From Polytrichum commune (Eukaryota; Streptophyta; Polytrichopsida; Polytrichales; Polytrichaceae): a DNA stretch of 64,000 bases. The position numbers and the translations under genes were made by a program. The notes under the pieces were generated by a model that saw only the letters and a program-made list of their open reading frames with translations, was not told the origin of the DNA and ran no database searches. The stretch is from assembly GCA_950295325.1 (NCBI GenBank), contig OX485808.1:27114527-27178526 (forward strand), written 5' to 3'. This document shows, piece by piece, positions 7,054 to 39,400 of this stretch; position 1 is the stretch's first letter; each line of letters begins with the position of its first letter.

Positions 7054-7583
7054 CTCTTACATCTTCCCACCAACACTTGTATCTGTTTTGTTATCATTCG
7101 AAACCTTCTTCTACCTCCTCTGAGATTACCCATACGCAGTAATTGTGTCCCGATAATGCCACCTCGTAATTAGCCGCTGCAAAACAACCAATATACATGC
7201 AAGAGAACATTAAGGTATTTCACATTTACTCGGGCTTTAAAAAAACACTTAAGTTAACCCCAAATCATCCAAGGCCCACAGACACATACTTTTTGAGCTA
7301 CATACTTCCATTTGTAGTTGATTGTGTCAAAAATGACCCTCTCTAAGATCAACTCATTCTTCAAGTGTGGCAGTTTTCAAATTGCTTGGAAAGTTGTGCC
7401 TTGATGTTATTGATCATGTTGGGCTCCAATACACAGCCTGGGTGCCCTTGGACACACAACTACATACTTATAATTTGGGTCACCAGTGTCACGTGTGAGT
7501 AGATTTCTATGTTCTTCATTGACGTAAGGTGATATATTAAGTAGAGATTCAAACCCATCAATGATAATAAAAAGAAGTAAATT
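7054..7583. other. 3' flank of the amylase-like gene
   Basis: Intergenic DNA that should include the 3' UTR of the minus-strand amylase-like gene. No other gene is seen. Confidence 0.4.
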
Positions 7584-10500
7584 TTAAGACGTGGTGAGTT
7601 CGAAGTAAAAAGTAGATTCAAAAGGGCGATGACGACAACAAAGGGAGTGTTGTAAGTTGCAAAGGCACTCACGAGGAGCGAAACCTCGAAGGTCAAAACT
7701 GGGGCCAAACTTGACGTAAACTCCATTGAAGTCAGCACTCTCAAGGTGCCGCCCAATCTTGGCAATGTACAAATTCGCGTCACACCTTTCGATTTTGATT
7801 TGGCTATCTGGAGAGATGTCCCACTTCTTCCTGATTGCAAGGAGTGATTTTATATGTCTCTGCAAAATTCCACCACAAAGAGATTTTGAGTGAAAAGTTT
7901 AAAAATACCTTCTAGAATTAAACTTGCTTTGATGGCGATTTTGTCTTTGTAAACTGCACAAACTATTCCTATATACTAAGTGATAAGAAAAGAGAAAAGC
8001 CTACTGCAGGCATTTCCGAGTCCACAGACAATTTAGGCTGGTGGATCCAATTGCAAACTGTATCCTCCAGTTGGGAATTGCGAATCACAAAACTCGTCGT
8101 TTCGCGTTTCAATATTCGAGTTGAGATGCAAACCCTAGAAGAGGTCGAAGAGAAGAATTTCACTCTTTTTGATCCATCACATAGACCTAGATCCTCCCAA
8201 TTGTGTCCACTCTTGAATGTCGTATGGTGTCTATATTTTGAGCACATAGTCCAATCTCATCGTAACATGTGTCTTTTTTAGTGTCCGTACTTAACTACAA
8301 GCCTTCCCATATATACCACTCAAATATACGTGTCCAAACTAAGAGTGATCACATTAGGTCCCACTTCCAGAAATTCAGATGAATGCAAAAAAAATGTACC
8401 TGAAGAGCTAGGTCTTGGAAGTCCTCCGCAAATATGCATGGTATACCTGGGTGTGTAAGAATATAGACATATCTGTCACCAAAATGCAACAGAGATGTTA
8501 ATCAAAATTATCACATTCACAAGATAGAATGTGCAAATCTGTGAACTTAAAAAGTTCTCATCAATGTTGGACTGGTATTTAGGTGTGGATGCATGGGTAT
8601 CAATAATCAACATCAATAATGGTATCAAGGAACTTGTCCATGGGTAGCAAACATATAATACCAATAGATTATTGATATTTGATGGGTATGTGAAGGCTGA
8701 GAGAACCTTTTTATACCCAAGTTATTATTTGGGTCAATACCATTCTAAACCATATTGATACAAGGGCGATTTTATCTACGAATGAAGGTTTTTGCATGGT
8801 ATATAGACCCAAATGCCATCAAAAACAAATAATACCGTTAAACAACCAGACCCTACTGGTATCAAAAATATGTGAAATCCACATTATAGAAACCTCCCCA
8901 AGTGGTCTCAAAAACAAGACGATACCAGTCCAACACTGGTTCTTACCCTAATTCAATACCCCATGTAGGGTAAGGCCATAGTCTTGGTTCTGAACCGGTG
9001 CTGTGATTGTCCAAGAATGTAATTGCCTGCAAAAATAATTACAAAATTTACAAACTCGCTCGTAGACAAGACTTATTGAATCCCATCCTACAACTTAACA
9101 ACTCTCTAACATACGAACAACATCCCTTCCAGGAAAGATATTTCTCAAAATTAATTAAAAAAATCAAAATTGAAACTTTTGGTTGCAGTAGTTAGGCCCC
9201 CTTTTACAATAGGGAGCTAGAAGAAAGGAGCCTTCTCTTTCACGTGGCATTCCAATTTGATATCTTTTTGAACTTTTTGCCGAGCTTACAATGGTTTCAT
9301 GGCACCTTGATGTATCCCATGTAGAATGACTACACCAAGCTCCCGCTCAAAATCCTAAGCTATCTCCACGAGGTAGCTTAGGAATGTCGAGAGTTTGCGG
9401 TCTCGTTTTGTGGGCCTCAAGCTGATAAGCTGTTCAAGCGTTCCTTGGCTTGTAGTAAATGCTTCTTTGTTTAGTATAATTTATGTCCGCCTTGATATCT
9501 CACTTTGAGCATGGCCACTTTGCACTTGCTCTTGAAAACTATTGAGATCTTGAAGATTGGTGAAGCTCTCAAATGTTTGAGCTTTTGATGAAAGCTTGTC
9601 AACTCCAAGTATCTAACTCACAAAAATTTGTAATTTCGAGCTCTAGCATGACGGGGACTTAATACTCATAAGCCAAGGCATGAACTACCAGGCAGTAGTT
9701 ACCCCAGAATGGCCTACACTAAATATTGTATTCAGTGCTACCAATTCGGTTTGTCTTTCGCAATACTAATTGTAGACCGCCCATGTAGTTGTCACCAACT
9801 TACACAACCCAGAATCCTCCATAGTATCAATAAAACTATATTTATTTATTATACTATTTTAGAAGGAAAAAAAGACACCAAGAAGACAGTCCAGTAATGT
9901 AGAGTAAAAAAACTTGCCATTTCAGGCCACCAGCCAATCAAGCCTGAGGGTTTCCCTGCAGTATCACACAGCCGCCAATACTCGGTGGCCTCCACAGCCT
10001 TTTGCAATATGCCCTGAATGCACAACAATTCTTGAATTTGAGGTAAGTGGGCCTTGATCAGACACTTGTTCTTGTAGGATATAAAACACATTGCAATTAG
10101 TGTGAGATGAATAGCAAGTCCAAATCGTGCACGTAGCACATTTTTTCCTCATAATTTTTGGACTTCATATGAACATCTGGTTCAGAATCAAAGTGGAAAT
10201 TCTTGTGTTCATTTACGTTGATCAGATAGGTCCCCCCAGATTATGATGTTGACTATTGAGCCTAGAATGGTTAACAAATTTTGAGCACATAATGTGATCT
10301 CTTTTTTTAACACATGATCATGGTGTCCATTCTTAGATCCATACCTAACCACATACCACTCAAATATAGGTGTCCACATTATAGTTGTGTTAGATTAACA
10401 CTGGGGTTGGATTGGTATCATCTTCTTTTGAGACCATTCGGGAAGGTATCTATAATGAAGATTTCACATGTTTTGATACCAATAGGATATGAGTATGTGA

Positions 10501-13500
10501 TAGTAATTTTGTTTTTGATACCATTCGGGTCTATACACCATGCAAGCACCCTCATGCCTAAGCAAATTCACCCTAGTATCAATATGTGGCTTAAAATGCA
10601 AGACCCTTCAAGCCTAAGTGTATCTACCCTAGTATCAATATGGTTTAGAATGCTATTGATCCAAATACTAACTCAGGTATACAAAGGTTCTCTCACCCTT
10701 GAGATACCCCCCAATATCAACTTTTGACTTGAATTACAATTTTGATACCCATGGGTAGGTTCTTTGATACCATTATTGATGTTGATTACTGATACCATGC
10801 ATTCGCCTATATACTAGACCAACACTCCTAAACTATCATACAAAAGTCTAATACCAAAATGGGGGAATGTGCACCACAATCAAATTTGTGGAGTAGGAGG
10901 GTACCTTGGTTGTGTAGTCGAAAACCCTGGCCGAGCCACCCGCTACGTTCACCCAATCACACAACTGTTGGCGGTGCTCATCTGTGTTTTTTTAACATGA
11001 CATAATTTAATATGCATCAAGTTGCAATTTTAATCCGCTAACTGTTGACTACTTTGAATCCAAGAATATATCTGCTCGAACTGCAAAAATCAACTGCATT
11101 CTTGACTTAAGCTCAAGAGAAATGAATCTGGCACAGGAGAATTATCCTTGAAAGTCTTTCGTGTGGAGGCCACACGCATTCAAAAACGCTGGTTTTCAAA
11201 AACAGACTTTAGTAAGCCAAAGGTAAAATAATTTCCGGCCTTCACATGTGCCTAACTTCAAGGAGCTTGGTTTCAAGGTTGGTCCCTCTTTTATTGGGTA
11301 TAGATGTCCTTTTTCAACTCCAATCCAAGACGGTGGTTTTGCAAGGCTTAAAACCTCCATTTCTGATCAAAGTTGGAAACGGACAGTTTCAACCACAAAA
11401 AGAGGGACCAACCTTGAAACCAAGCTCCACGAAGTTAGGCACATATCAAGGCTGGAATTCTTTTACCTTGGCTTACGAAACTCCGTTTCGAAACTGGCAA
11501 TTTTGAACAGAGCGTGTGGGGCCTCCCCTTCAAAAACTCGTGGATTTGGTGAGAAGTTTTGGCCTATTTTTTACATTTTTATAATGTTTCAAGGAGTTTT
11601 CAAGTGGTGTCAGAACATTTGAACATTTTGAACATAACCATCTTTTGGCAAATGCCAAACACCTCCATTTCATTTCACTAAAATCAGGGGTTCCAACACC
11701 CATTTGAACACTACTTAAACATTATAAAATGTACAAATTTAGGCCCAAACTCCCTACCAAACCCGTGAGTGTATGAGAGACTTTTAAGAATAACTTGAGT
11801 GAACTACAATAACATGCCAAAGTTTGAACATTGAAGTGAGTGAAAAATGTAGCAATTTACACATTACCCTGATTGTACTCCAACATTGTGCCATTGTACC
11901 TGGGATGCAGAAAAAAGAAGAAGAAACGAAATTAACAAGACAGGGTAAATGATTTTGTCAGTGATTTGCTCCAGCGTACAAATATCAAACAATTCTTTCA
12001 TGTCTGCATAAAATGGCTTGGAACCAATCAAGGATTTGGATGGTGGCTACTCAATTAATCATGAACATGAAGAACAATAAACAACAATTTTTAATGTTAG
12101 AATGAAGTTGAATTAATATTTAGAACAGCACTCAAATAACCTACCGCATAGGATGCCACACGTCGCCAACTGCAATAGCTGGTGTAGTCTCTTCACCATA
12201 TCTGCCAGATTTTAAATGTTATAAATAAATTAAAGAATGAAACTTTCCTTCTTATATATGATTTTGATTCTCACTTTTAACTTATACCACAACCGTTTTG
12301 CAAGAAATTAACCTACCCAAAAAGGCCCTGCCTGAAATTCTACTTAAATAGAGTACTTCACTTCAGAAATATCTAAGCAACCAGTTACCGGCGGACATTT
12401 CTCTTTCAAAACACTTCTCTTACAACTGATTTATGAGCCTATTCTTTCAGGTACCAAAATCATCAAATTACATGATCTTTTTTATAAAAAAATTCAACCA
12501 CAAGTTTCTTACATTTGAAAAATCTTCGGGTCATAAGTCTTTGCATAATCAAAGCACCACCCCTGCAAGAAAAAGTAGCGTTACCAAAGTTCTATAACAT
12601 TCCAACTATCAATTGACAGCTGCAGTGGTTATTGCAAAAAACCCTAAAAACCACAACAACTATTAAAAATGAAAATTAAATTACAATGCTCAAAAACCTC
12701 TCTAATTATGGACCCAAGATTGATATCAGAAACTTTAAAAAATATTGATTGGGTACTTACGTCGAAGCCGACATCCTTCTTGAGCCACAGTAACCAGCCC
12801 TTGACATCATTCTGAAAGACAGGATGGGAGTGATCTATTATATTACGCGCAGTTAAATTAACTGCACCATTTTTTGGTATATCATCATCAGATTCAAAGT
12901 CTCCTGCTCCAATCCAGTCGCCGAGATCAATTTCCTGTGAACCATCCAAAATTCATTGTCAATCATTATTATACAACCAAAATTGTAAAATCACTTGTGT
13001 CACAGCAAGTGGCAAGCTGCTAGAGCCTCGCTTCTTTTTGTGATCAAAGCTAGACAAGTCCTTGATCAAGACTAGTGTTTTGTTATAGAGCTAAATATAT
13101 AAGTGCCTCTTCCTAGGAACTTCATCTTTGCAAAACAAGAATATAATACATAAATAAAATCGAAATAGTATGCTTCTATAAACTAAAATAAGAATCATGT
13201 ATATATAGTATAAATCTAACATAAGAAAGAAAAAAGAAAAGACAAAATACAATGTAGGGTGGGATGATATATACAACTTCAGCAAGTTGAAAAAAAAATG
13301 AATGAATGAATGAATGCAAAAGAGTGGAGTTGTCAAAGAGACCGAGTCCAAAATGGTGCCGGCTTTATTCCATGCGGCTTGACAAGCCTGGTCACTGTCC
13401 ACAAATTGATGTAATACAACGTCAAGGATGATATACATTTCATACTTGTGCAATGTCGCCAGCGCTGTTTTGAGTTGATCTTCGGTGCCATACGCGGAAT

Positions 13501-14552
13501 CTAGGTTGTAGAAATCTTGTGGCATAAACCCTGCAACAAAAAAAGAGCAGATTCACATGAGCATTTTTACCAAAACCTAAAGAGACAATTTCCCAAGAGG
13601 ACTCATAGGTTAAGAAAAAATTACAGGTTTTCTCAACCTACAAGAACTTCTTAAAAGATTGCAATTCCTGAGGAGTGAGTCTTGCTTGTTTGTGGATTTT
13701 AGATTAATATACCTGGATACAACTTACACTTTCTCAACCTACAAAATCCTCTTGAAAGACTGCATTTCCATTACAATCGAATGAACTTGTTTCAAGGAAT
13801 TTAAACATGCCTGGATACAAGCTACATGTTCTCAACCTACAAAAACTTACTGAAAAGACTGCATTTCCACTAGAGTTGCGTCTACTTGCCTGAACCCAAC
13901 TCAAATTTTCCCAACCCACAACAACTTGGGAGATTGCATTTCCATGAAACTTTTTTAATAGATAAAATAAATTACGGATGTTGGGATAATTACCTTGCGG
14001 GTCAGTAGCCCTGGTACAAGGGGGGAAAAGAATGTGAGTGAATCCTGTGGCCTTCAATTCAGGTGCAAGCTCAGTCATCCGTTCATAAAACGTTTTGCCA
14101 TCCTGCCTCAAATGGGAGTTCCACCCAAACGCCTGAAATAAGGATTCTGTTTTCTCAGGCATGTTCAATTTGACTTCGGTGATCATGGGCTCCTCAGTTT
14201 TTTCATCTTCTTGTAACCCACTTGCTTCCTCAAACCCTATCGCCGTCCTCATCCTCATTCGAACTTCATGCTGCCTCCACCGGCTGCTACTGCTCCAATA
14301 ACCATTTTTTTCACGCACAAAATTTGAGGAGCTGACTGAATCACCATGATTCACTCTCCCACAAGAAACCGCCAAATTCCTCCCTTTTTGCCCTAAATAC
14401 CAACATGAAGCTCTTCTTCTCGAAATGAGCTCCGTGGATGATGATGATGATGGGCTTGCTTTTAAGCTTGACTCGAATTTGCAAAGTTCTTGTCGTTGTT
14501 GTTGATGGCAGTGCGAAATTGTGGACGGTGAAAATCCATTCAGGCAACCCAT
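7584..14552 (-). CDS. AMY3-type alpha-amylase-like protein with degenerate active site, 11 exons, 553 aa
   Basis: GH13 alpha-amylase homologue closest in motif order to plastidial AMY3. Exons: 13994-14552, 13343-13530, 12761-12934, 12513-12562, 12145-12201, 11868-11899, 10905-10981, 9918-10013, 8947-9026, 8400-8472, 7584-7859; the total is 1662 nt and phases agree throughout. Residues 1 to ~70 are Ser/Arg-rich like a plastid transit peptide; no CBM45 domain precedes the barrel. Region I reads DVVLHQ (223-228) where the family has an Asn-His pair. Region II reads GWCFDY: nucleophile Asp312 is kept, but the invariant Arg is Cys310. Region III reads AVGDVW: acid/base Glu is Asp337. Region IV reads DNHST: stabiliser Asp is Ser420. 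Hydrolysis is therefore doubtful and a regulatory or binding role is inferred. Start Met at 14552 is preferred for its transit-like sequence; an upstream in-frame Met lies at 14594. Exon 2 uses a weak donor (GTCTCT) and exon 8 a GC donor. Confidence 0.88.
8566..8940 (-). mobile_element. Intronic MITE-like element (amylase intron 9)
   Basis: Ends carry TTGGACTGGTAT at left and ATACCAGTCCAACACTGG at right, an inverted pair. The interior repeats gatacc/ggtatc blocks that recur in opposite orientation at 10394-10836 in intron 7. Its right end stops only a few bases from the exon 9 donor at 8946. Confidence 0.6.
9700..9835 (+). mobile_element. Fragment of CTACACTAA-terminus MITE (amylase intron 8)
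   Basis: Carries ctacactaaatattgtatt followed by blocks (caatactaattgtagaccg, gtcaccaac) shared with the complete element at 49325-49735. Only the left part is present. Confidence 0.5.
10040..10393 (+). mobile_element. MITE family 1 copy (amylase intron 7)
   Basis: Begins with ggtaagtgggcctt and runs through gtgtgagatgaatagcaa, catatgaacatctg, tcaaagtgga, atggttaacaaattttgag and ctcaaatataggtgtcca. It is a nearly complete forward copy between exons 8 and 7. Confidence 0.65.
10394..10836 (+). mobile_element. Intronic MITE-like element, opposite copy of the one in intron 9
   Basis: Shares gataccattcgggt, caccctagtatcaatat and gataccattattgatgttg with 8566-8940 in reverse complement. Both copies sit in the same gene, two introns apart. 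Confidence 0.55.
11161..11535. mobile_element. Foldback element (amylase intron 6), arms ~180 bp
   Basis: The two halves are reverse complements: gtgcctaacttc...gagcttggtttcaaggttgg at left pairs with ccaaccttgaaaccaagctc...gaagttaggcac at right, and the outer ends gtgtggaggcc and ggcctcc pair as well. Transcription of the intron would form a long hairpin. Confidence 0.75.
13625..13960. repeat. Tandem repeat, ~80-98-bp unit, ~4 copies, amylase intron 1
   Basis: The blocks ctcaacctacaa, aagactgcatttcca and cctggatacaa recur about every 80-98 bp between exons 1 and 2. Copies are degenerate. The repeat stays largely open in the frame of exon 1, which makes the exon 1 frame run far into the intron. 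Confidence 0.7.
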
Positions 14553-25778: not shown

Positions 25779-28539
25779 TCACTGAAGAGTGGTATGCTTC
25801 ACGGTCCATTTACCATCCCCAGCTCGGTGCACTTCGGACTTGAAATGCTCTTCTTTCACACCACGCTTGGTCTTCAACTCAAGATGAAAATTAGCGTCCT
25901 CGTCCTTAAGCTGTAATAAGGACAGCGGGACACACAAGTCAGACAGTGGTCGTGGTTTGGGGTCTGCTCCAACAGCACATGCCTCTGAACTTAGGAGCTG
26001 CAATAAACAAAATAGCAGGGGGAAAAAACAGGTAAAGCATAAAACAATTGCATGTTCCAAATAATTAGTAACAAAAATACTACACTTTACCATCTCCTTT
26101 AGCAGAAGTCGGAACTTCAAAGCTATAGGAGAGGTTAAGAACAAGGGAAAAAGCAATGAAACTGTTCTATGATTGGAGCATGATAGAGGCAGCATGTGTA
26201 AGTGAGCATCTAACATCCATCAACACACCATTCCACTAGAGCAACAAACTTAAATTTCAGTTTCGAAAGAAATCTACACCAATTGGCCACATTGTGTTTG
26301 CTCTCCAAGCAGAAGCAGAAAGAATAATTGAGGAAACAAGTAACTCAAATGTATCCAACATACACCAACACGCACTTTCACTGTGCAACAGAGTTTAAGT
26401 TGGATGTTTGGCTCTTTTCACACAGTTCCTCTTGTACAGACACGATGAAGTCTGAGAGCAATGGAACTGATTTGGGTATGAATCCAGAATCAAGCAGCAA
26501 AATCATGGAGGAAACAAGTATATCCACTGATCCAACATTTACAACACACCATTTCACCGAGGAAAAGACTTCAAATTTCCAACAACATTTGTTTCCCTTG
26601 TGCAGTTCCCTCCTCTTCAGCAATCTACATCAATTGATTACTGGACCGCCAAGTACAAACCTCTTTTTCTTGCGCAGACACAATGAAGTCAAAGAGGAAT
26701 GAAACTGTTCCAGGTAAAAATCCATAACCAAGCAGCAAAAAACAAATTGAGGAAAGAAGTGTAACATCCACAAAAACATTTGTTCTAACTTACAACAACT
26801 GACCACCAATTAGACCACGAAGTATGTACAACAGACCTCTGCTTGTGCAGACACAACTTCCTTAAGCTCATACAACGCAAGGGAGTTTGATCCCTGTTGG
26901 AGAATTTTCATTGTGTGCTCAGCGGCCTCCTGCACAGCTGGATCGTCTGTAGGCACAGTCTGCATGCCCGAAGGCGGGCCGCATTTATGGAGGACGCCGA
27001 GGGGCACTCCTACATGGTACCATAGACGATCCATGTTCAGAAACGGAGTTGTGTGCTTTCTTTATAAAAGAAAAAGAAAAAAAAACCAAGAGGACATTTC
27101 TCCACCTTGCCTTTCATTTCCTTTTCCTACCCCAAGTACTTCGTCCGAAAGTTTGGAAATTCATCACCACTTGTGTCTCATACACAGAGACGTTTCTTTG
27201 CATGAAGATGTTTGGATCCCAACACATAATTTTGACATAACATCCGAAAAGCATCGGTGACGCAGGTTCACATCTTTGCAGCAATTTGAGGGTATCCAGG
27301 TGGAGAACAATTAAGAAGAGGAAATTTAAGTTCAACATTGTTTTGTCCTTCTGTGAAATTGTTGGACGACAAACGAAGAGCACCAATTAAAAAAAGTAGG
27401 AAAAAGGGCGAAGGACGTAAGCTTTGTATATATCAACCTTTGGCCACACCCAAGTCAGCGGAAGTTAACGCACCCGATGAGGCCTTGGGCTTGAATTCTT
27501 CCAACTTCTTGAAGTTCTCCCATGGCTTCACCCACACCTTGGCCTCGTATTCCTTGGGCTTGTTGTCCTCCGTCACCTCAATCACAAGGTAGTACATGGT
27601 GCCCTGCACCACTTGCTTGTGGGCTGACACCACCTTGGAGAAGGTCAACTTCTCCACAGAATTCTGCAAAAATGGCGCCAAACACATGACATCCTCGGCA
27701 TCAGAAACACCGAAAGATCGCATTAAAAAGAAAATCCCAGAAAATTTGCAAAAATGTCGCCAAACATTGACGTCCTCGCCATCGGTGATGGTTCCGAACC
27801 CCGAATAACCACACAAACGAAAAATCTCTGGAAAATTGCAAAAATTTCACCAAACACAGACATCCTCGCCATCAGTACAAGATGACTAGGAAGGCCCAAG
27901 GACCACAAAATTGAATATCTCTGAAAATGTCCAGAAAGGTCGCCAAACAGACATCCTCGACATCAGTATAGATGGTTCGGAATGCCGAAAGACCACAAAA
28001 AAGATAATCTCTGAAAATTTGCAAACTAAACACCAAACACAGACATCCTCGCCATCAGTACAAGATGGTTCGGAACGCCAAAAGACCTCATGAAGGAGAT
28101 CTCTTGAAATATGCAAAAACACCAAAACACAGACATCATCGCCACCAGTACAGATTTATTCGTCACGAAATACCAACAACAACCAATATAATTACCGACA
28201 ACACTACGAAAAGCCAACATCGTCAGATCCGAAGAAGCGCAGACAGAAACGAACCCAATTCCGTCAACAAGCCAACTCTCGGATTAATTCAAACTGTTGA
28301 ACCCACATAGAGAAGAAATACAAAAAAAACAACACCAAAAACTAAGCATGAAGGAAGGAAAGTTACACACAAAATTGCATTTAAACTTTATTTTTATTTT
28401 TTCAAGAAAAAACAAGTTAAACCCACCGACCAAGAGGACAAACCTGCTGGTTGTTGTGCTCGTTGACGGCATAGTTGGCCAACTCCTCGACCTCAAGGTC
28501 ATTTGCAGCCGCGGGCACTTCCGTCTTGCCTCCCAACAT
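25779..28539 (-). CDS. Two-domain phytocystatin (cysteine proteinase inhibitor), 187 aa
   Basis: Inhibitor of papain-type proteases with a C-terminal extension of the kind that inhibits legumains. Exons: 28444-28539, 27438-27663, 26837-26946, 25779-25910 (564 nt with stop). The N-terminal domain has Gly3-Gly4, the phytocystatin signature LANYAVNEHN (20-29), the loop QVVQG (49-53) and the Pro79-Trp80 pair. The C-terminal domain carries SNSL (127-130), the legumain-reactive motif, and ends KHTTLQ. No signal peptide follows Met1, so cytosolic location is inferred; an in-frame Met at 28611 adds 24 residues that do not look like a signal. The exon 2-exon 3 junction (27438/26946) was chosen by phase; it leaves a linker about ten residues shorter than usual, so a small missed exon or alternative acceptor is possible. 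Introns 1 and 3 hold tandem arrays. Confidence 0.92.
26100..26860. repeat. Degenerate ~200-240-bp tandem repeat in cystatin intron 3, reaching into exon 3
   Basis: Blocks of the type cctct..ttg.gcagacac, gaaactgttc/gaactgattt, aatcca.aa.caagcagcaaa, gaggaaacaagt and aacatttgttt.cc recur at about 26.14, 26.42, 26.66 and 26.83 kb. The last occurrence is the 3' end of exon 3 with its donor. Confidence 0.55.
27664..28155. repeat. ~90-bp tandem repeat, ~5.5 copies, in cystatin intron 1
   Basis: Each unit reads approximately ttgcaaaaatgtcgccaaac, then acagacatcctcgccatcag, then gatggttcggaa, then gccgaaagaccacaaa, then aatctctgaaa. Units start near 27661, 27745, 27837, 27929, 28017 and 28110. The first unit begins in the exon 2 acceptor. 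Confidence 0.85.
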
Positions 28540-36448: not shown

Positions 36449-39400
36449 TCATGTTGTAGTCTGCACAAGTAGGCTTCCAATGTCTGACGAATTCAAACTG
36501 GTTCCGTTAATTTCATTCTTGGGAACATCCGGAGGCCACGTCGGACTCGGATTCACAAAGCTGGAATTGAATATCTTTGACGTGCTCGCATACTTGTGTG
36601 CGGCCCGTGTGTACTTTGCAATGCTTGTATCCTTCCACCATGTCCCAGCGATAGGCGTTGCGCTTCCATTTACAACTGACATTTTTGCCTCCTTGCAATC
36701 CTCAACTTGGCTAGTTTTCAGGCTGTAGTGGTTGATTCTTGCGATGGACGTGTCGAGGATGACGCCCGAATGTTGAGGTTCGAGCACGAGATGTAAGCTG
36801 GCCGCAAACACGAGGCGAGGATTCGCGATCCACTTCCGTCGGCCTTCGTTTCCGGAACACGTTGTCGCGTGCTCCGCCATGTTGCCACCACATGTCGGGT
36901 GCTCCATCCGGAAACACAACTTGTCGACCGCCCAAGTTTTCACGATATTTTTAAGTGATTCCTTTTGTGCACAACAATATTCGCCGGACCATTCCATCCT
37001 GCCAAACGAGATCCAGGGGGTGTTGTTGTAGGTGTCCAACAATCCCGGCAACATTTGTGGCGGCGCGACCCACAAGTATTCCTCAAAGCTCCAGAAGAAA
37101 GCCCAGTCTGCAAGATACCTGTGACGTGGCAAAGCTTCAATGTGAGTAAAAGGGTTAGCCACAACTCCCTAGCAGTAGTCCAACATGAATAGGACTCTGA
37201 AACTCTCTGATTTGACATAGATAATAGAGGCATGGGTGAAGGAGATATAAAACTGTGCCTCCAAGATGTTGTTCTTAAAGCTTCCTCTCCATATCTCATG
37301 TTGGGTAGGTGGTTTGTGCCACATAAACTCCTAGATTTGCAGAATGTCACGATACCTCACTTTGGAGGCACTCTGCAAGATACATGCGGCGTGCAAAGCT
37401 TCTACGTGAACAGGGTTAAGCCACAACACTTAGAAGTCCAACGTGAATTAGCCTGAGAAACTCTCTAATTTGAAATAGAAATTGGAGGCATGCGGGGAGC
37501 TATAGAAGCGAAGAGGAGAGAAGAAGGGAAGCAGGAATAGAATTAGTATGCCTCCCTGCTGTTGCTCCATAGCTCATGGTTGGGTGGTTAGTTTGTGCCA
37601 CATAAACGCCTCTAGCCTTGCAGAATGTCACAATACCTCGCTTCACGGAGGCACTTGTCCTATTTGAATAGGACTGAGAAACTCTCTTGTTTAAATATAG
37701 AAACTAGAGGTATAGGGGGAGCTATAGAAGCGGAGAGAAGAGAAGGGGAGCAAGAGATTATTCTGGTATGCCTCCATGGTGTTGCTCTCAAATCTCCTCT
37801 CCATAGCACACAGTTGGGTGGTTTGTGCCACATAATCTATAGACTTGTTAAATGTCACAAAACTTCACTATTTGCAGGCAATAGTCCAATCTGAACAGGG
37901 CCGAGAAACTCTCTTATTCTAAATAGAAGCTAGAGGCGCCGGGGGAGGAGCTATAGAAACGGAGAAAAGAGAAGGGGAGCGAGATGAAGTAATTCTAGTA
38001 TGCCTCCTTTCCATGGCTCACAAGGGGTTGGTTTGTGCCACATAAACTCTAGACTTGTAAAATGTCACAATACCTCACTCTGTGAAGGCATTCGTCCAAT
38101 CTGGATAGGACCGAGAAACTCTTGTATTTGAAATAGGAACTGGAGGCATGGGGGAACTTATAAAAAGGGGAGAGAATGGGAACATGAAGAAGAGCTTCCA
38201 GAATGCCTTCATGATGTTGCTTCTCAAGCCTCCTCTTCATAGCTCATGGTTGGGTAGTTTTGTACCACCTATAACTTTTCTAGAGTTGAAGAATGTCGCA
38301 ATACCTCGCCCGGTGGAGGCAATCGTTCATCACCAAGTGGTGACCTGGATATTGACCCGCCAACAAGTTGCTTCTTCCCGCCAACCGCACGTCAATTAGG
38401 GTTACGAGGCCGTTGTTCAAGAGCGGTCGCAACACCTTCATGACCTCCGCTCTGAGGTCAATCCCATGGTATATGAAGTAATGCGTTTTCCTCACATGGA
38501 AGAGGGAATGGTGGTACATGAACCACTCCTTCAAGTGGTCAGGGTTCAGGCCCGAGTCTAAGATCAGCGGCGAGCAATACGCATACTGGTATCGCAAGGG
38601 ACCTTCAAACTGGATGCTGTAGATTTCCTCCGGTTTCTGCCGGAAAACTGGGACAAACTCGGTCGTGTGAATTTTCATGTACAGGTCTCCCCCTTTGCCG
38701 TTTGCGCCAGTGGGGTCATCAAAAGCGCACTTAATCACGGCCACATCGTATGAGGTAAATTCATGTGACGGCTCGTTTGTGACGGTGGTGCTCTTGGTTC
38801 CCAGTTGTATGGGGGGCATATAATTATCATTATTGTTAGTGTTGTCGTACCCTAGCCCTCCTGATGTGTCTTGGGTATTTTCGGGTTTTTGTATCCACGC
38901 ACATGCTTCAGGTACTGGGTCCTTTGAGGGCGACTTCTCGGACAGGCCCAGGAGCACCACCACGTAGAATTCAGTGTCAGAAAATCTGTAGGAGCTGAAC
39001 ACGATGACGGAGTGAAGAGATTTACCATACGTTTGCAGCTTGTACGGCCAATTTTTCGTCGATGACACCAACAGTCTTCCGTTGTTGGTTTCCATCACCT
39101 TCATTCCGTCTGTTCAAGCAACACAAATTGAATATATATATATATAAAAGATACTGCAATGATGTGTATTGGCAATAATATTTCCTAACTTCTTCGTCAA
39201 GTTACATTTTAATAAGTGTTCTATTTAAGTTTGAGTACACTGATTTCTACCTGGGTGAAACGTAAATGCCTCAAAGTCGGCGACTACTGACTTCAAATTT
39301 AGCACTTGTGATATATTTCTAGAATAAAAAATGCAGCCTATTGGTTGCGAGAGATAAACAAGTCAATGCTAAATACTGTCCACTTTGTGAACTTCTTATA

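Follow-up and report, generated by a model that had tools for sequence, protein, structure and literature searches.

Introduction

ISA2 is an inactive isoamylase-type GH13 protein that acts through an active partner. The structure of the ISA1–ISA2 complex is cited in PMC12892837. Among the beta-amylases, BAM9 is described in PMC8774843 as plastidial, without measurable hydrolysis, and as a regulator of starch breakdown, and the roles given to BAM4 and BAM9 rest on mutants (PMC8774843 and PMC12892837). In the moss Polytrichum commune, we have analysed a gene that resembles these proteins in its losses and belongs to the plant alpha-amylase family. Plant GH13 subfamily 6, comprising barley AMY1/AMY2 and the AMY1–AMY6 subfamilies of Ju et al. 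2019, combines a barrel with a C-terminal sheet domain, as does the moss homologue; the homologue differs in having lost catalytic residues. With BAM4 and BAM9 it shares catalytic residue loss in a paralogue of starch hydrolases, and it may share their plastidic location, but those two have the beta-amylase fold and belong to the beta-amylase family. ISA2 differs in belonging to the debranching-enzyme subfamily and in having a known partner. Like the starch pseudoenzymes BAM4, BAM9 and ISA2, the homologue is encoded by an intact gene whose product has lost catalytic residues.

No plant alpha-amylase pseudoenzyme was found in the literature among the matches listed, judged by titles and abstract openings; as far as we found, a non-cutting helper role is known for other starch enzymes, not for alpha-amylase. 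The family survey of Ju et al. 2019 found a conserved active site in every plant alpha-amylase subfamily and dropped sequences with 'apparent sequence erosions' (part of the text of PMC6426938), a filter that may have removed genes of this kind.

Results

Gene structure and a corrected 3′ end

The homologue lies on the minus strand at positions 14552–7094 of the window (the whole stretch of 64,000 nucleotides that was analysed), on contig C6 (44.65 Mb); the genome searched comprises 407.8 Mb in 64 contigs. Our corrected model has 12 exons and encodes 551 aa (Table 1). The original prediction had joined eleven exons (14552–7584) into 553 stop-free aa, and on rebuilding, its in-phase junctions and open frame stood; intron 8 is of the GC-AG kind, with its donor at 9917, and the other nine are GT-AG. 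Its 3′ end did not, because exon 11 there reads through a donor (CTC/GTGAGT, first intron base 7672), residues 525–553 being the product of this read-through. That end was rejected, and a spliced exon 12, with acceptor TTTTGCAG and protein end ...PANYEVALSGHNYCVWVISEEVEEGFE-stop, replaces it.

Table 1. Exons of the alpha-amylase homologue in window coordinates, with barley AMY1 residue numbers for substitutions
Feature	Position	Strand	Content
Exon 1	13994..14552	-	ATG, Ser-rich N-terminus (putative transit peptide), barrel begins
Exon 2	13343..13530	-	GFMPQDFY (Y52F); region I DVVLHQ (N92H, H93Q, R94F)
Exon 3	12761..12934	-	domain B; barley D139 to N, D149 to I
Exon 4	12513..12562	-	region II GWCFDYAKTY (R178C, G184T; D180 kept)
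Exon 5	12145..12201	-	region III AVGDVW (E205D)
Exon 6	11868..11899	-	32 nt
Exon 7	10905..10981	-	DEHRQQLCDWVN...FDYTTK
Exon 8	9918..10013	-	GLIGWWP, barley W278-W279 surface-site pair kept; GC donor next
Exon 9	8947..9026	-	region IV FLDNHSTGSE (D291S; H290 kept)
Exon 10	8400..8472	-	GYVYILTHPGIPCIF
Exon 11 (corrected end)	7673..7859	-	C-terminal sheet domain begins; donor GTGAGT from 7672
Exon 12 (absent from the original prediction)	7094..7176	-	strand motif ANYEVALSGHNYCVW...stop, C-terminal sheet domain end

To locate the new end, paralogue C-termini were aligned to the downstream DNA with an in-house spliced aligner. One query scored 92.0, where 15 shuffles of that DNA reached 65.8 at most; for another the corresponding values were 55.5 and 42.9. 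Tiny spurious exons in both raw alignments were dropped. Exon 12 restores the C-terminal sheet domain: the Alpha-amyl_C2 profile (PF07821, cut-off 27) reaches 23.4 bits over profile positions 3–42 of 60 in the 11-exon model, and 45.1 bits over positions 3–59 in the 12-exon model. With the exon and the domain recovered, the homologue is therefore more intact than first supposed. Queried against the raw region, the full paralogue C5 recovers exons 2–11 at both their boundaries, exon 1 at its 3′ boundary, and exon 12 as far as homology extends (7176–7130); paralogue C3 gives the same boundaries, together with two kinds of spurious match, a 3-base exon and some 5′ pieces. The donor after exon 2 (TCG/GTCTCT) is weak.

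The introns also carry inverted repeats, with copies in introns 9 and 7 (window 8596–8797 and 10596–10796) and a 115-nt repeat in intron 6 whose arms are separated by 9 nt (11226–11464). These are perhaps insertions of short mobile elements.

Descent from plant alpha-amylases

Barley alpha-amylase chains match the protein with E about 1e-81 over residues 137–524 of the 11-exon model, and the barrel profile PF00128 scores 32.8 bits (cut-off 22) with a match limited to residues 166–233. When the protein was searched against its own genome, six further alpha-amylase loci were found (C6b, C5, C3, C7, C4 and C2), of which C6b sits on the same contig, 12.5 Mb away. All six models are stop-free over their modelled parts and have canonical active sites; in the alignment C7, C4 and C2 enter without their N-termini and C6b without its C-terminus. 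A likely exon for the C-terminus of C6b lies ~1.4 kb downstream of its model. Identity to the homologue ranges from 35 to 43% among the six, the nearest being C3 (43.2%), followed by C5 (41.2%) and C6b (40.5%), with barley at 39.3%. C5 and C3 (loci L003 and L004) have few barrel introns, ~268 barrel residues of C5 lying in one exon.

Several other places were set aside. A C-terminal domain fragment closely resembling that of C2 (L008, C3:47849368-47849472), with no recognisable barrel in the 7.5 kb retrieved around it, is probably a relic copy and was excluded from the paralogue count; the PF00128 places C2:14402765 and C2:17103025 were left out of the paralogue comparison; and a weak match to the N-terminus of the homologue at C4:37629164 (E 3.1, two stops) was put down to chance. 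The homologue itself was missing from the family profile searches, which indicates that diverged copies can escape them. Among the viral contigs scanned, no relative was confirmed, and the CBM53 profile PF16760 matched neither this genome nor any of 14 control genomes, a result that shows nothing.

Intron positions were compared for ten of the eleven introns of the homologue. Six are private. The other four recur among the paralogues: the first in all six, the second in C6b, C7, C4 and C2, the third only in C6b and the fourth only in C7. The shared positions tie the gene to plant genes. The original label of AMY3-type does not fit in the Arabidopsis sense, because the stretch before the barrel measures 136 aa, compared to the N-terminal extension of 460–570 aa in the AMY5 and AMY6 subfamilies (Ju et al. 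2019, in part of PMC6426938).

In a tree of 26 rows, including eight plant rows and 18 of the 80 bacterial loci, the rows nearest to the homologue by path are bacterial, over a long branch. It also shares G9 and N11 with bacterial relatives, 13 and 12, respectively, of the 33 with at least 40% identity having these residues (among the best 80 of 491). The tree also served to ask whether the homologue belongs to the AMY3 lineage of Ju et al. 2019 (cereal AMY1–3 and AtAMY1). A grouping of the homologue with C6b, C5, C3 and barley was not rejected (p-AU 0.27), nor was one with C6b (0.19) or one of all eight plant rows (0.27). Its end branch, at 1.96 amino-acid changes per column, is 3–9 times those of C6b (0.62), C5 (0.32) and C3 (0.22). 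Taken together, barrel homology, the PF07821 domain and the intron positions point to descent within the plant alpha-amylases of GH13 subfamily 6.

Loss of catalytic residues

With residues numbered as in barley AMY1 (chain 2qpu), the homologue is changed at Y52F, N92H, H93Q, R94F, R178C, G184T, E205D and D291S, and keeps D88, D180, W207, N289, H290 and W299. We scored seven positions that we take to be catalytic (Y52, H93, R178, D180, E205, H290 and D291). E205 and D291 are named as members of the catalytic set in part of PMC6426938 (Ju et al. 2019). Five of the seven are changed in the homologue and none in the six paralogues or barley. All seven are also intact in 80/80 bacterial relatives (the best 80 of 491 confirmed), a count biased at R178 and D180 because the search for these relatives relied in part on a region II pattern with Arg and Asp; five of the 80 loci, still counted, have an internal stop (L020, L024, L043, L048 and L072). 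N92 and G184 have the barley residue in 79 of the same 80.

The substitutions first read from the DNA (Cys310, Asp337, Ser420 and the region I motif DVVLHQ, beside the kept Asp312) were all recovered, and the claim that all four GH13 motifs are altered is borne out, yet the nucleophile Asp is kept, as is the His of region IV. Among the acid/base Glu, nucleophile Asp, stabiliser Asp, region I His and region II Arg, only the nucleophile (D180) is kept. For region I an ungapped alignment is favoured because the homologue and C6b are equally long there.

These losses stand out from general divergence. Across the 97 columns invariant in seven homologues, the protein keeps 72 and loses 25, with changes at 5/7 catalytic columns versus 20/90 others (Fisher p 0.012). 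When each of the other sequences was left out in turn, it kept 97 of 98–107 invariant columns, compared to 73–78 of the same columns in the homologue. The protein would accordingly be expected, from its residues, to be unable to hydrolyse starch.

Maintenance or decay

A recently stripped duplicate, open by chance, is the alternative that survives best. It would account for the very long branch and the 25 lost invariant columns, as well as for one weak and one GC donor, but it has to be reconciled with how intact the gene is. About 4.7% of random changes in the frame create a stop, and under neutral drift the frame would stay free of stops, with every splice dinucleotide intact, at a probability of 0.003 for 0.05 changes per site and 7e-6 for 0.1 (11-exon model, counting substitutions and not indels). 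The probability that at least five of the seven catalytic codons are hit neutrally is 3e-6 at 0.02 changes per site and 2e-4 at 0.05, so recent decay explains the losses poorly: they far exceed what the short neutral interval compatible with the lack of stops would bring. From both sets of probabilities, calculated from one assembled sequence, the catalytic losses most likely arose while the frame was under constraint. All twelve exons are open; exon 12, although small and far from the others, codes for the conserved last strand and has strong splice sites. The open exons and the very long branch together argue against neutral decay for most of the history of the gene, and we regard a relic as unlikely. 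The long branch is also compatible with relaxed constraint.

Base composition at third codon positions (GC3 0.467) lies within the paralogue range (0.43–0.60), with intron GC at 0.359. Branch dN/dS was estimated from the 11-exon model over 369 codon columns on one fixed topology, with the homologue placed beside C6b. One omega gave a log-likelihood of -7791.2 and a separate omega for the homologue -7786.6 (dS saturated, branch at its bound); the free estimates, with synonymous sites saturated, were 0.038 for the homologue and 0.019 for the rest, about twofold apart. Fixing omega at 1 on the branch gave -7803.6, 17.0 units worse than free, to which saturated dS lends little weight. Because synonymous sites are saturated, within-genome dN/dS is uninformative. 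The original prediction of an intact, spliced alpha-amylase homologue that is presumably catalytically dead, with signs of long maintenance, has the support of the sequence.

Residues retained around the active site

An enzyme with a new activity, acting on another substrate or by another mechanism through the kept nucleophile Asp and region IV His, is a further explanation for a maintained gene, and retention at the D180, H290, W207 and W299 positions speaks for it. Against this, four alterations come together, at the acid/base residue, the third carboxylate, the His of region I and the Arg of region II. Changes also occur at N92, D149 and G184, which we take to be conserved calcium ligand positions (C7, C4 and C2 carry Asn at D149). 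A new activity seems somewhat less probable than a relic.

Surface sites and the N-terminus

At the position of Tyr380, presumably an SBS2 residue, Phe occurs in the homologue, C5 and C3. The SBS1 pair W278-W279 is retained as Trp 407 and 408 of the protein itself, and its first Trp is replaced in four of the six paralogues (F in C5, Y in C3, V in C4 and M in C2). As evidence, this retention amounts to one feature. According to part of PMC6426938, the SBS1 Trp pair, E205 and D291 are conserved across all six plant AMY subfamilies.

The first 100 aa contain 24 Ser/Thr and 6 Asp/Glu, a composition that fits a putative plastid transit peptide, and AMY3-lineage genes of liverworts, mosses and ferns have predicted chloroplast signals (Ju et al. 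2019, in part of PMC6426938). Two paralogues carry a long N-terminal extension, which is rich in Ser/Thr in C5 and in Arg/Lys in C6b. In C5 the first Met begins a run of hydrophobic residues, perhaps a secretory signal; family N-termini are therefore not uniformly transit-like.

A role outside starch metabolism, with the barrel reused as a binding module, has nothing positive in its favour beyond the putative status of the transit peptide, and it runs against both the kept surface starch-site Trp pair and the long extensions that C5 and C6b also bear; we consider it the more doubtful of the functional alternatives. An assembly or modelling artefact would be compatible with the splicing being predicted, but it is very improbable, since the exon boundaries are recovered with paralogue queries, the contig spans 44.65 Mb and the query against its own genome found no near-identical second copy.

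Other features of the window and genome

Elsewhere in the window, an open frame at 27436–27846 on the minus strand has a domain of the cystatin type (55.2 bits for SQAPI and 40.2 bits for Cystatin in Pfam) and is likely a phytocystatin gene. Two adjacent minus-strand frames at 36452–39113 give weak GT92 matches (17.0 and 21.3 bits; cut-off 23) and are perhaps exons of one gene. The assembly probably comprises seven large chromosomes: C2–C7 measure 70.3–42.1 Mb, and what is left of the total would accommodate another of about that size. The plastid contig C8 (146,561 bp) encodes rbcL and also an rpoA-type domain, the latter speaking against a typical moss. Two more rbcL matches, both partial and on large contigs (L091, C3:14137891; L092, C2:70106055), one with a stop, are probably plastid DNA in the nucleus. 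DUF617, a family that we take to mark land plants, has two matches in the genome.

Discussion

With the barrel fold kept and most catalytic residues lost, the homologue probably survives as a non-cutting, starch-binding helper. We put at roughly 0.5 the probability that it is a maintained plant alpha-amylase pseudoenzyme, taken together with its proposed plastid location, non-hydrolytic glucan binding and role as scaffold or modulator. Under this proposal, the protein would be imported into the plastid, where it could not cut starch and would still bind alpha-glucan via the Trp pair and what is left of the aromatic cleft; it may then act as a starch-binding scaffold or as a modulator of active hydrolases, like BAM4, BAM9 or ISA2. 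A plastidic, glucan-binding protein is probable from the N-terminal composition and the surface site, and we infer the regulatory role from these likenesses. More tentatively, and with the odds somewhat against it, the gene may found an old lineage of starch-binding plastid alpha-amylase pseudoenzymes that steer active hydrolases, a counterpart of BAM4 and BAM9 in a non-seed plant.

The proposal allows a clear bench test, namely starch binding without hydrolysis. Inactive relatives of beta-amylase and isoamylase control plant starch, and an inactive alpha-amylase would add a third hydrolase family.
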